From contig CALUWA010000001.1 in the NCBI GenBank assembly GCA_944324365.1, positions 186,001 to 250,000 on the forward strand: DNA of 64,000 nt. Reading direction: 5' to 3'. The stretch is from Candidatus Gastranaerophilales bacterium. Lineage in GTDB: Bacteria; Cyanobacteriota; Vampirovibrionia; Gastranaerophilales; Gastranaerophilaceae. A model generated the notes under the pieces. It was not told the DNA's origin, did not search any database, and saw nothing but the letters and a program-made list of their open reading frames with translations. A program made the position numbers and the translations under genes. Shown in pieces: positions 8,182 to 55,354 of the stretch (positions are counted from its first letter, which is position 1; each line of letters starts with the position of its first letter).

Positions 8182-8520
8182 TTAGCTCAAATTTCCGAGA
8201 GCATTAATAAAAACAGCTTTAATCGCGTCATCTTTGCTCACCTCATGGTGGCGAACTTTGTCATATATAGAATAGTAAGAATAAAACGGAACATTTGAAA
8301 GTGCATAGGAACGAACAGCCTTTGCAGCTCCAATCTCTCCTCTCGCAAACTTATCAAGATAGTAATAAGGAGCAGTATTTGAATGAGTACTTAAAATAAG
8401 CTCATTAACAGAAGCCGGTCTTATTAATTTTGTTGACTGCTGGCGGTTATCTTGGTTTTCCGCATTAGCATGCCTCGTATGGGGATATAATGTAAATCTA
8501 TACTTGTGAAGATTAATCAC
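8182..8520 (-). CDS. small hypothetical protein, GTG start
   Basis: The 112-residue protein has no family I recognise. It begins with GTG, preceded at 9 bases by a clear GGAGG, which fixes the start. It is basic and Tyr/His-rich at the N-terminus, with a helical second half (AAKAVRSYALSNVPFYSYYSIYDKVRHHEVSKDDAIKAVF). There is no signal peptide or membrane helix. It converges with argS without a gap and is divergent from the attenuator-controlled gene. Confidence 0.65.
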   Translation of the reverse strand: MINLHKYRFTLYPHTRHANAENQDNRQQSTKLIRPASVNELILSTHSNTAPYYYLDKFARGEIGAAKAVRSYALSNVPFYSYYSIYDKVRHHEVSKDDAIKAVFINALGNLS

Positions 8521-8609: not shown

Positions 8610-8638
8610 TTGAAAAATATTTTTTTTATTGTTATATT
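8610..8638 (+). promoter_or_regulatory. promoter of the His-attenuated transcript
   Basis: TTGAAA, 17 bases, TATATT. The expected transcription start (about 8645) lies only a few bases before the leader-peptide ATG at 8648, so the leader would be translated as a nearly leaderless message. Confidence 0.7.
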
Positions 8639-8647
8639 GACACTACA

Positions 8648-8710
8648 ATGAAAAACATAGTTAGCAGACAATTCCATCATCATCACCATAGCAACCTGAA
8701 AAGGCTGTAG
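8648..8710 (+). CDS. histidine-rich attenuation leader peptide
   Basis: This is a 20-codon reading frame whose codons 10-14 are all histidine (CAT CAT CAT CAC CAT), followed by SNLKRL and TAG. It resembles the his operon leader peptides of enterobacteria in design. Its last codons and stop overlap the first arm of the antiterminator. A ribosome that stalls at the His codons leaves that arm free; one that reaches the stop covers it. The peptide itself probably has no function. Confidence 0.85.
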   Translation: MKNIVSRQFHHHHHSNLKRL

Positions 8711-8788
8711 GGATTGATGGTGCTCAAATAATATTCAATTCTAAGAAGTAGCCTTTTCGGGAAAACAGAGCAAAAGGTTACTTTTTTT
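8698..8788 (+). promoter_or_regulatory. histidine-responsive transcription attenuator
   Basis: Three mutually exclusive arms are visible. Arm 2 is 8698-8708 (GAAAAGGCT plus two wobbles). Arm 3 is 8746-8758 (AAGTAGCCTTTTC). Arm 4 is 8772-8784 (AAAAGGTTACTT). Arms 3:4 give a 12-bp stem with one G-U pair followed by seven T (8782-8788), an intrinsic terminator. Arms 2:3 give nine Watson-Crick pairs plus two wobbles, an antiterminator. In addition CACCAT in the His codons can pair with ATGGTG just downstream (arm 1). Low His-tRNA charging should favour 2:3 and read-through. Confidence 0.8.
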
Positions 8789-8811
8789 ATGGAATTGGAG
8801 ATTACAAAAAC

Positions 8812-10221
8812 ATGGCAATAATAAACAGCATAATTTCGGCAATAGGAAATAACAACAGCATTTACCCGCTCTTAGTCAGAGACTGCGGAATTGAAAATCC
8901 TATTAAAGTATATAAAACATACAATCAAAATAAAGATGACAATGAAATCGCATATCTCGCAACAAGAGAACGTCTGATTGATGAATACGCAACATCAGCA
9001 GTATGGCTTGGCGGCATACCGTTAATTGACAAAATTTCGAACTATTTTATTAGAAAAAAAGCGTTTTCTCCGGATATAAATATTAAATTATATAAGGAAG
9101 AAGCAGGCATCCAAGGCTTACAGTACAATATCAATAAATTCAAAAACATAAAAGGCGCTGAAGAAGCCGTAAAAGATCTTGAATACGTTCTTGCTAACAA
9201 AAACCAATATAAAAAATTACAAGGATACAAATTTTTATCAGCAATGGTATTTCCTATTGCGCTAATGGGCTTTGTAATTCCAAAAGCAATCTTTGCGCTT
9301 ACTGCAAATACCAGAGCCAAAAAGGCGGCACTGGAAAAACAGAATTCACTTTCCCAACCAGTGAAGCAAAACATTGCATTCTCAGGCTATGATGTTTTTG
9401 ACAAATTCATACTAAATAATCCTAAACAAATTACATTTAAAGGCGGATTTGCAGGAGCGGTATGCAATTTAAGCACTGTTGATAAAATGGCAATAACAGA
9501 CGGCGGCTATGCTCTGGGCAGAATTGCAACAGCAAGAAAGAAAAACGAAAGAATTGATCTTGGTTTTAAAATGCTTGGAATGATGTATCTTAACTTTGTT
9601 GCTCCAAAACAAATAGACAAGTTGTTAACGAACCTGACACAAAAGATATTTAATATGGACGTTAACCTGGATCCGACAATTCTTGGCGATAAAAGATTAA
9701 AAGACGCAGTAGTAAATAATACGCTAAAATTGCCGGCCAGCAATTCAGCCAAAGATTTATTGGACTTTGTTGACAACTTAGACAATTCAAAAGGGCTATT
9801 TATAGAATATGCACAAAAATTTAACAAAATAAAAATGCTTGATTGCGGGGTACGCGACCCAAGAGCATATGTCGATATCAAAGAATTAGGTAAATTTCGT
9901 GATGATCTGGCTAAATTTACAGAAAAATTGAAAGAAATCGAAAAAGAACGGATAGAAAATATTAAACAGTACACCCAGAAAATTAAAGAAAATCCTGCAT
10001 TAAAAGAAGAACTAAACACATATATAAAGAAAAATCCTGTCCTCAAATACATAAAAACAGCAAAAGCCGCAAAAACATTCAATATACTTGCAAATGTAGG
10101 ACTTAGCAGCTACCTGTTGGCATGTGTATTGCCGGAAGCTCAATTTGCATTCCGCGAGTGGGTGACCGGGTCAAAGCTTGAACCTGGCTTGATTATCGAC
10201 GATAAAAAGAAGAAAAATTAA
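8812..10221 (+). CDS. protein of unknown function under a His attenuator
   Basis: The 469-residue protein matches no family I know and is clearly not a histidine-biosynthesis enzyme. It has a hydrophobic segment at about 142-162 (FLSAMVFPIALMGFVIPKAIFAL), an ITFKGG motif near 205-210 and a second hydrophobic segment near 435-452. A Lys/Glu-rich coiled-coil-like stretch (about 355-415) and a basic KKKKN tail are also visible. It has no signal peptide. It is the first and only gene after the attenuator, so its synthesis should rise when charged tRNA-His is scarce. It overlaps the stop of convergent kdsD by four bases. Confidence 0.75.
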   Translation: MAIINSIISAIGNNNSIYPLLVRDCGIENPIKVYKTYNQNKDDNEIAYLATRERLIDEYATSAVWLGGIPLIDKISNYFIRKKAFSPDINIKLYKEEAGIQGLQYNINKFKNIKGAEEAVKDLEYVLANKNQYKKLQGYKFLSAMVFPIALMGFVIPKAIFALTANTRAKKAALEKQNSLSQPVKQNIAFSGYDVFDKFILNNPKQITFKGGFAGAVCNLSTVDKMAITDGGYALGRIATARKKNERIDLGFKMLGMMYLNFVAPKQIDKLLTNLTQKIFNMDVNLDPTILGDKRLKDAVVNNTLKLPASNSAKDLLDFVDNLDNSKGLFIEYAQKFNKIKMLDCGVRDPRAYVDIKELGKFRDDLAKFTEKLKEIEKERIENIKQYTQKIKENPALKEELNTYIKKNPVLKYIKTAKAAKTFNILANVGLSSYLLACVLPEAQFAFREWVTGSKLEPGLIIDDKKKKN

Positions 10222-53876: not shown

Positions 53877-55013
53877 ATGAAAAAATTATTGTTACTATTA
53901 CTTTTGATATTTGGATTATGTTTACCGGTATTTGCAGACAACACAGGAGAGCTTGAACTGCCGTCTGCCTCCGGAGTTGTTGAAAGTATCCAATATGAGG
54001 ATGTTCCGAACTTACAACAGGGTGACAATAATGTAAAACAAATCGTAAAAATCAAGGTATTATCCGGCAAATATAAAGGTACAGAACGATATGTCGACAA
54101 TATGCTTACGGGAAATCCGGCTTATGACATTCCGCTAAAAAAAGGTGATAAAGTAGTATTACACCTTGAAGCAAACAGCCCGGAAGTATTATCACCAGAT
54201 GATGTTGATTTCTTTATTGCGGATTTAAAGCGAGATAACACACTTATTTTTATAGCCGGAGCTTTCTTTATTCTGCTTGTACTTATCGGCGGGAGAAAAG
54301 GTGCCGCAAGTTTAATTTCTATTGCAGCAACCGTTGCATTGATGTTTTTCGTCCTTATGCCGCTAATTTTACACGGCTTTTGTCCTATCGCATCGGCCGT
54401 TTTTACGGCAATACTATCCTCCGCAATAACAATTTATCTTGTCGGCGGATTTAACTCCAAAAGCAGTGCCGCTATATTAGGGACAGTTTTAAGCCTTATA
54501 ATTGCGGCCGGACTATCCATGGGAGTAATTTATTATGCAAGATTAACGGGATTTGCAGGGGAAGAAAATATGTTTTTGTATTCGGCTCATCCAAATCTTA
54601 ATTTTACCGGAATTTTGTCAGCATCAATGATAATTGCGGCATTGGGCGCTCTAATGGATACTGCCGTTTCTATCGCAAGCACTATTAATGAAATCTATGA
54701 AACGGATAAAACTCTTTCTGTCAAAAAATTGTTTGTTTCAGGAATGAATGTTGGACGCGACATTATCGGAACAATGTCAAATACTCTTATTCTTGTCTAT
54801 CTTGGAAGTTCCCTATCCCTGGTACTTTTATCAAGTAATATAGATTTGCAGAAATTCTTTAATTTAAACCAGGTTGCAACGGAAATATCTTCGGCACTAA
54901 TCGGAAGTATTGCAATATTAGCCTGCGTACCGCTCACGGCATTCATTGCGGCGTTTATGATAAAAAAACAAAAAGACAAGCTGGAATTTGATTTTGAAAA
55001 TAAAGCCAACTAG
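53877..55013 (+). CDS. YibE/F-like membrane protein
   Basis: The 378-residue protein has a signal peptide (KKLLLLLLLIFGLCLPVFA), a periplasmic beta-rich part (about 22-120; VKQIVKIKVLSGKYKGTERYVDNML) and then seven membrane helices. The family core reads FIAGAFFILLVLIGGRKGAASLISIAATVALMFFVLMPLIL, LGALMDTAVSIASTINEI and NTLILVYLGSSL. These match YibE/F proteins, thought to be permeases of unknown substrate. It overlaps the stop of the convergent XRE gene by four bases. Confidence 0.88.
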   Translation: MKKLLLLLLLIFGLCLPVFADNTGELELPSASGVVESIQYEDVPNLQQGDNNVKQIVKIKVLSGKYKGTERYVDNMLTGNPAYDIPLKKGDKVVLHLEANSPEVLSPDDVDFFIADLKRDNTLIFIAGAFFILLVLIGGRKGAASLISIAATVALMFFVLMPLILHGFCPIASAVFTAILSSAITIYLVGGFNSKSSAAILGTVLSLIIAAGLSMGVIYYARLTGFAGEENMFLYSAHPNLNFTGILSASMIIAALGALMDTAVSIASTINEIYETDKTLSVKKLFVSGMNVGRDIIGTMSNTLILVYLGSSLSLVLLSSNIDLQKFFNLNQVATEISSALIGSIAILACVPLTAFIAAFMIKKQKDKLEFDFENKAN

Positions 55014-55354
55014 CTTTTTAAAATATCAATCCCTTTTTGTGCCTGCCTCAAAAGACCATAATAAAATTCCAATTCCTGTTCATTTTTAGCAGCATTTAAA
55101 ATTTGAAGAGATTTTATATAGTAAGGACTTTGGTTTGATTCAATATGATTTAAATCAATCCCGATATCTTCAATACTTATTGAAAGAGCCCCGAGAATTT
55201 TATTCAATGTAGTATAAGTCGGGAAATAAACTCCGGTTTCTATTTTAGACAGATGCTTATCGTCGATGCCGGCCAATTCCGCAAGCTGAGCTTGTGTTAG
55301 ATTTTTTGACTTTCTTATTTGCTGTAGTTTTTTACCGAAATTACTCTTAGCCAT
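55010..55354 (-). CDS. XRE-family transcription regulator
   Basis: The 114-residue protein has an N-terminal helix-turn-helix (about 8-62): GKKLQQIRKSKNLTQAQLAELAGIDDKHLSKIETGVYFPTYTTLNKILGAL, with a C-terminal helical segment. A ribosome-binding site (AAGGAG) and a TATAAA box precede it on the minus strand. It may control the following small membrane peptide or itself; no target is visible. Confidence 0.88.
   Translation of the reverse strand: MAKSNFGKKLQQIRKSKNLTQAQLAELAGIDDKHLSKIETGVYFPTYTTLNKILGALSISIEDIGIDLNHIESNQSPYYIKSLQILNAAKNEQELEFYYGLLRQAQKGIDILKS

Follow-up and report, generated by a model that had tools for sequence, protein, structure and literature searches.

A probable histidine attenuator upstream of an orphan membrane protein gene in Gastranaerophilaceae lacking histidine biosynthesis

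Background

Why should an RNA element with the layout of a histidine operon attenuator stand in front of a gene that is not for histidine synthesis? The question is raised by a locus in a 64,000-nucleotide stretch (hereafter, the window) of the genome of a Candidatus Gastranaerophilales bacterium (GenBank assembly GCA_944324365.1, contig CALUWA010000001.1, positions 186,001 to 250,000). A first-pass annotation, made from the sequence alone, proposed that a gene for a membrane protein of unknown function is preceded by a promoter, a leader of 20 codons, five of them successive His codons, and an antiterminator in competition with a seven-T terminator; the protein would be needed when histidine or charged tRNA-His is scarce. 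In the present study, this proposal was followed up by computation in the genomes of the order. Our results are best read as a histidine-responsive, ribosome-mediated attenuator that probably drives the expression of an orphan membrane protein for histidine acquisition in bacteria without histidine biosynthesis.

Results

Anatomy of the attenuator

The elements of the locus are as follows (window coordinates).

8610 to 8638, plus strand: sigma-70-type promoter (TTGAAA 8610-8615, 17-bp spacer, TATATT 8633-8638; from the sequence)
8648 to 8710, plus strand: leader ORF MKNIVSRQFHHHHHSNLKRL and stop (20 codons; a His-rich ORF lies at the same place in 80/80 relatives examined)
8675 to 8689, plus strand: five regulatory His codons, CAT CAT CAT CAC CAT (leader codons 10-14; from the sequence)
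8663 to 8724, plus strand: A:C stem (1:2), core 8675-8679 with 8715-8719 (helix scan; covariation at 5/5 core pairs, 80 leaders)
8695 to 8761, plus strand: antiterminator or anti-sequestor hairpin (ON; helix scan and masked folds; 202 compensatory cells, 80 leaders)
8695 to 8708 with 8748 to 8761, plus strand: helix B:E of the ON hairpin
8711 to 8717 with 8735 to 8741, plus strand: helix C:D, inside B:E
8745 to 8788, plus strand: intrinsic terminator (OFF), E:E' 8745-8757 with 8772-8784 and T7 8782-8788 (helix scan, covariation)
8735 to 8798, plus strand: Shine-Dalgarno (SD)-sequestering helix D:F, the outer part of the OFF hairpin (8735-8742 with 8791-8798)
8797 to 8800, plus strand: SD sequence GGAG of the controlled gene (from the sequence)
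8812 to 10221, plus strand: controlled gene, for an orphan membrane protein of 469 aa that is helical, internally repeated and free of histidine

Thus, every attenuator part that the first-pass annotation had named is present at 8610-8811, each where it had been placed: the promoter, the 20-codon leader, the five His codons, the antiterminator and the T7 terminator. Its account was incomplete in that it missed the near-leaderless AUG, the sequestration of the SD sequence and the wide conservation of the element. The His codons at 8675-8689 also serve as the 5' strand (A) of the A:C helix, and the terminator hairpin also covers the SD sequence, by the pairing of 8735-8742 with 8791-8798.

The leader AUG lies nine bases past the end of the -10 box, within a few nucleotides of the expected transcription start, from which we infer that translation probably begins at an AUG at or close to the 5' end of the transcript. 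The leaders of close relatives are preceded by similar TTGNAA/TATATT-like boxes; in L002, L003 and L010, as in the window, about nine bases separate the -10 box from the leader ORF, which thus appears to be leaderless. In many relatives, the leaders of other genera have an SD-like GGA motif rather than a leaderless start. Between argS and the leader, the opposite strand carries a 112-aa ORF (8182-8520, minus strand) without a Pfam match.

Conservation and covariation

The window genome (2.05 Mb, 99.8% complete) contains four (CAY)5 runs; three of them are inside long frames, and the only copy in a leader is that of the window. When an alignment of 19 leaders was scanned for helices without any structure being supplied, the top ranks were E:E' (13 bp), D:F (8 bp) and B:E (8+6 bp), and C:D (7 bp) and A:C (5 bp) were also recovered. 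These helices fall into an OFF set (A:C, D:F and E:E') and an ON set (B:E and C:D), which have strands in common and are mutually exclusive.

A covariance model built from these first 19 leaders gathered 80 leaders in all. In the OFF structure, 90.2% of the cells were paired and 221 were double-changed, against 66 in shuffles; the corresponding values for the ON structure were 90.6% and 202, against 68, and neither structure was matched in any of the 500 shuffles (0/500 each). The alignment was fitted to the OFF structure, which introduces a bias for OFF and not for ON, and the relatedness of the sequences may inflate both counts. The condition set beforehand for a refutation, namely that relatives would have lost the His codons or the pairing, was not fulfilled: 80/80 leader peptides keep from 3 to 7 His codons, and both pairings co-vary. 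Histidine accounts for 21.9% of leader residues in a variable arrangement, and CAT for 336/353 His codons. In each of the 80 leaders, an open frame runs from ATG to stop and reads the repeat as CAT; the rest of the peptide varies.

A T run of at least five follows the hairpin in 48/80 relatives. Because the D:F helix is kept (95.1% of its cells are paired in the 80 leaders), the relatives without the run probably act via SD sequestration alone.

The covariance model recovers the element in 165 of the order's 286 genomes; nearly all of these belong to one family (about 160 of its 264 genomes), and a second copy in the same genome is rare. In every match examined, except for two weak ones, the downstream gene is an orthologue of the window gene; this holds for all of the 80 leaders. 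Two weak matches were not accepted as leaders: L119, because it is within a long coding frame, and 54980-55128 of the window (minus strand), because it is antisense to a long ORF.

Folding and the proposed switch

RNA folds were computed with masked ribosome footprints, and they follow the classical logic of attenuation. In RNA extending to 8745 with the leader unmasked, A:C forms (-18.2 kcal/mol). In RNA extending to 8766, the ON hairpin (-24.7 kcal/mol) is what remains when the ribosome is on His codons 1-3, and B and C are masked when it has reached the stop codon. For the complete leader at equilibrium, OFF is preferred in all masked states except that with the ribosome on His codon 3; therefore, the choice must fall during transcription, and co-transcriptional folding is needed.

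An attenuator of this class should have a translated leader, an antiterminator and a terminator or SD sequestor that exclude each other, and a geometry in which a stalled ribosome frees the antiterminator and a ribosome at the stop codon blocks it. The geometry is met on RNA to 8766, and the exclusive structures are met with covariation in both; as for the leader, the His-rich ORF is open in 80/80, and its translation is inferred. There is little doubt that the element at 8610-8811 is a real attenuator.

We propose that the switch would work as follows. With ample His-tRNA, the ribosome would reach the stop codon and cover B and C; after its release, A would pair with C and leave D and E free for the D-[E:E']-F structure, which would terminate transcription and hide the SD sequence. 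At histidine shortage, the ribosome would stall at the first His codons and block A, so that B-[C:D]-E may form and occupy E and D; RNA polymerase would then read on, and the SD sequence would be free. The product, which is built almost without histidine, could be made under histidine starvation. The response to His-tRNA in the cell and the rise of read-through under starvation are inferences.

The controlled gene and its product

The claim that the target is a non-biosynthetic membrane protein held: the protein has no Pfam match, and HisB and HisD are absent from the genome. No significant match was found in Pfam, NCBIfam, PHROGs or PDB sequences, including the known transporter families. Two hydrophobic segments stand out in the protein sequence and others are weaker; AlphaFold2 on 36 family members predicted a confident all-helical model (pLDDT 86). 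A fold search with this model gave no significant match (best Foldseek E 0.8), and a fold comparison (VIA) gave Z 5.8 to the membrane domains of ABC exporters, which is below the meaningful level for helical bundles. Within the family, the N-terminal half is homologous to the C-terminal half, an internal duplication (hhalign probability 94, E 9e-8). Internal repeats are frequent in membrane transporters, though not confined to them.

A search for conserved operon partners found none; the gene stands alone and its surroundings are variable. The commonest neighbour is relA/spoT (8/21 loci: L144, L147-L151, L156 and L157), and a member of the Na/alanine symporter family is encoded near the orthologue in 5/21 loci.

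Distant paralogues of the window gene are preceded by another conserved leader ORF, which contains Arg pairs and ends in a sequence like KLMNLxWGL before the stop (L067 at about 660-1008, from C3 of the window's own genome, and upstream of L018-L030). A second Arg-rich short ORF and a terminator-like hairpin often lie further upstream, and no clear depletion of Arg was seen in the proteins.

Histidine avoidance

The 21 orthologues contain only 7 histidines in 9295 residues (0.08%), and 15 of them contain none. The paralogues without the His leader have 68/7022 (0.97%; p 5e-18 against the orthologues), and histidine averages 1.6% in the long ORFs of the window. In a partly overlapping set of 21 loci, the count was 8/9102, versus 933/56521 (1.65%) in the neighbouring ORFs. 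The p-values for composition are inflated by species relatedness. A bias of amino acid biosynthetic enzymes against their cognate amino acid is known (Alves and Savageau 2005; PMC4209129), and the near-absence of histidine here strengthens the reading that the protein is needed under histidine scarcity.

Exclusion with histidine biosynthesis

HisRS is present in the window genome, and HisB and HisD are absent. Removal of the 22 genomes listed from other families from the 286 of the order left a family set of 264. Among these, 161 have the gene only, 57 have HisD only, 4 have both and 42 have neither (Fisher 9e-26, a p-value inflated by species relatedness). The exclusion is also seen within genera: genus g21 has 9 gene-only genomes, 9 HisB-only and 0 with both; g46 has 4, 17 and 0; and g5 has 7, 6 and 2. 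HisD was found in 22/22 genomes from the other families, and therefore histidine prototrophy was probably the ancestral state.

The exclusion is strong and not absolute, given the four exceptions with both the gene and HisD (G016, G023, G178 and G273) and the genomes with neither, which include four of the window's genus. In G178 (C10), the HisD and HisB scores are far above the rest (HisD E 5e-181, next 5e-155); these scores suggest that the his pathway of G178 was horizontally acquired.

A remotely related family with Ser and Cys leaders

Through a weak RNA match (L118), a further family of orphan membrane proteins came to light. Its genes have, at the same place, leader ORFs that are poly-Ser in 13 loci and poly-Cys in 14, and these are followed by terminator-like hairpins. 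The loci with Ser or Cys leaders are among L182-L212 (for example, L182 upstream of 1154, from G232:C3 near 138600). Proteins behind Ser leaders have 4.85% serine, versus 6.93% behind Cys leaders (p 2e-7); conversely, cysteine is 0.61% in the former and 0.17% in the latter (p 2e-5). Profile comparison shows a remote relationship between the two orphan families if the paralogues are included (hhalign probability 91, E 1e-6); when only the His branch was used, the probability fell to 20%. The model of the Ser/Cys family gave no significant fold match, and rows pointing to glutamate transporters were discarded as evidence, with TM-scores of only about 0.1.

A link of the Cys branch to auxotrophy was sought and not found: cysE is present in 109/116 genomes. 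Therefore, loss of the pathway is no general rule for the leader-controlled families. As for serine auxotrophy, TIGR01364 was above the cut-off in just 9 genomes, too few to inform.

Discussion

What the protein is for

The anatomy of the element, its conservation, the covariation of both states, the depletion of histidine and the near mutual exclusion with HisB/HisD are shown by computation. From the last two, the claim that the protein is needed when charged tRNA-His is scarce gains support, and we hold a role in the response to histidine shortage to be very likely. Histidine acquisition proper, that is, the import of histidine or His-containing peptides or help in importing them, is likely to a lesser degree; transport is inferred and not shown. 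Against it stand the absence of any fold or family match to a transporter, the approximately 42 genomes with neither the gene nor HisD, and the four with both. The first-pass annotation had offered an importer component or a stress protein, and the present data do not decide for either.

One possible alternative is that the attenuator is real and that histidine scarcity induces the protein as a factor of starvation or envelope stress, for survival, scavenging of the cell's own proteins or dormancy, without a role in acquisition. The failure to find a transporter fold, the position of relA/spoT as the commonest neighbour (8/21 loci) and the lack of a tie between the Cys branch and cysE loss are in its favor. 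However, it leaves unexplained both the near mutual exclusion with the His pathway and the amino-acid-specific branches.

A second alternative, which we consider very unlikely, is that the His-codon repeat is kept merely as the RNA strand of A:C and that the switch senses another ligand or a protein without decoding of histidine. The A:C pairs are conserved, and the prevalence of CAT would also be expected from pairing with region C. However, the repeat always keeps to the CAT frame of an open ORF (80/80) whose other residues vary, the controlled protein avoids histidine, and the gene avoids His prototrophs.

That the His-rich peptide is a sensor of metal (Zn/Ni/Cu) and the protein a metal transporter is all but excluded: His and Cys are metal ligands, and poly-His and poly-Cys leaders do precede remotely related proteins, but there are orthologues of the Cys type with a Ser leader in that position, and neither the depletion of the cognate amino acid nor the exclusion with HisD would be explained.

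Returning to acquisition, we infer that acquisition induced by starvation is the simplest common reading across the His, Ser and Cys branches. A bolder reading, for which the evidence does not yet quite suffice, is that Gastranaerophilaceae have an unrecognised superfamily of membrane proteins that scavenge single amino acids; each branch would have its own leader-peptide attenuator (His, Ser or Cys) and be depleted of the amino acid that it serves, and the His branch would replace the lost pathway.

Comparison with known systems

The leader of the proteobacterial his operon (Rfam RF00514, His_leader) shares with the window element the leader peptide with His codons, the alternative antiterminator and terminator, and the logic of the stalled ribosome. 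The Rfam search of the window element gave sub-threshold matches only, RF00514 scoring 17.2 bits (E 1) against a gathering score of 49 bits. Unlike RF00514, the present element belongs to another bacterial group, its outer helix covers the SD sequence, and its target is an orphan membrane protein in genomes without the his pathway; the controlled gene of his operon attenuators is for histidine biosynthesis, which is not the case here.

In Firmicutes, His attenuators and His T-boxes control his operons or the hisXYZ/yuiF transporters, and in His auxotrophs transporters are under His-specific control by T-boxes or HisR (PMC9413887). Histidine-specific RNA control is a point of likeness, and a transporter target in His auxotrophs would be another if the window protein serves import; however, the target in Firmicutes is a recognised transporter, and the family of the window protein has no known relatives. 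A further difference is that T-boxes have no leader ORF and bind the tRNA themselves. Attenuators that sequester the SD sequence are a known form (PMC9413887).

Mycobacterial leaderless poly-Cys short ORFs attenuate the downstream gene according to the amino-acid supply (Canestrari et al. 2020, cited in PMC9031893). A near-leaderless start, homopolymeric codons and attenuation are common to these and the window leader; the mycobacterial ORFs differ in having Cys rather than His codons, operonic genes and another phylum as host, and the parallel is closest to the poly-Cys leaders found here. The biosynthetic enzymes of PMC4209129 resemble the window protein in that a protein made under starvation avoids the scarce amino acid. 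The bias there concerns biosynthetic enzymes; here it is found in a membrane protein of unknown function and is near-total for histidine.

In the literature searched, no paper linked Gastranaerophilales or Melainabacteria to leader-peptide attenuation. Attenuation itself is known. What appears to be new, as far as this literature goes, is the bacterial group in which it occurs, the orphan family that it controls, the near-absence of histidine from that family and the exclusion with the pathway.

Conclusions

The regulation of an orphan gene usually tells little about its function. Here, the leader codons, the composition of the protein and the exclusion with biosynthesis name one nutrient, so that the function of the protein becomes directly testable. 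With this finding, the range of ribosome-mediated His attenuation comes to include a relative of Cyanobacteria that is not photosynthetic, and a remotely related orphan family shows the same layout with codons for Ser and Cys. This opens a route by which unknown membrane proteins of gut bacteria, most of them uncultured, can be assigned substrates by sequence alone.
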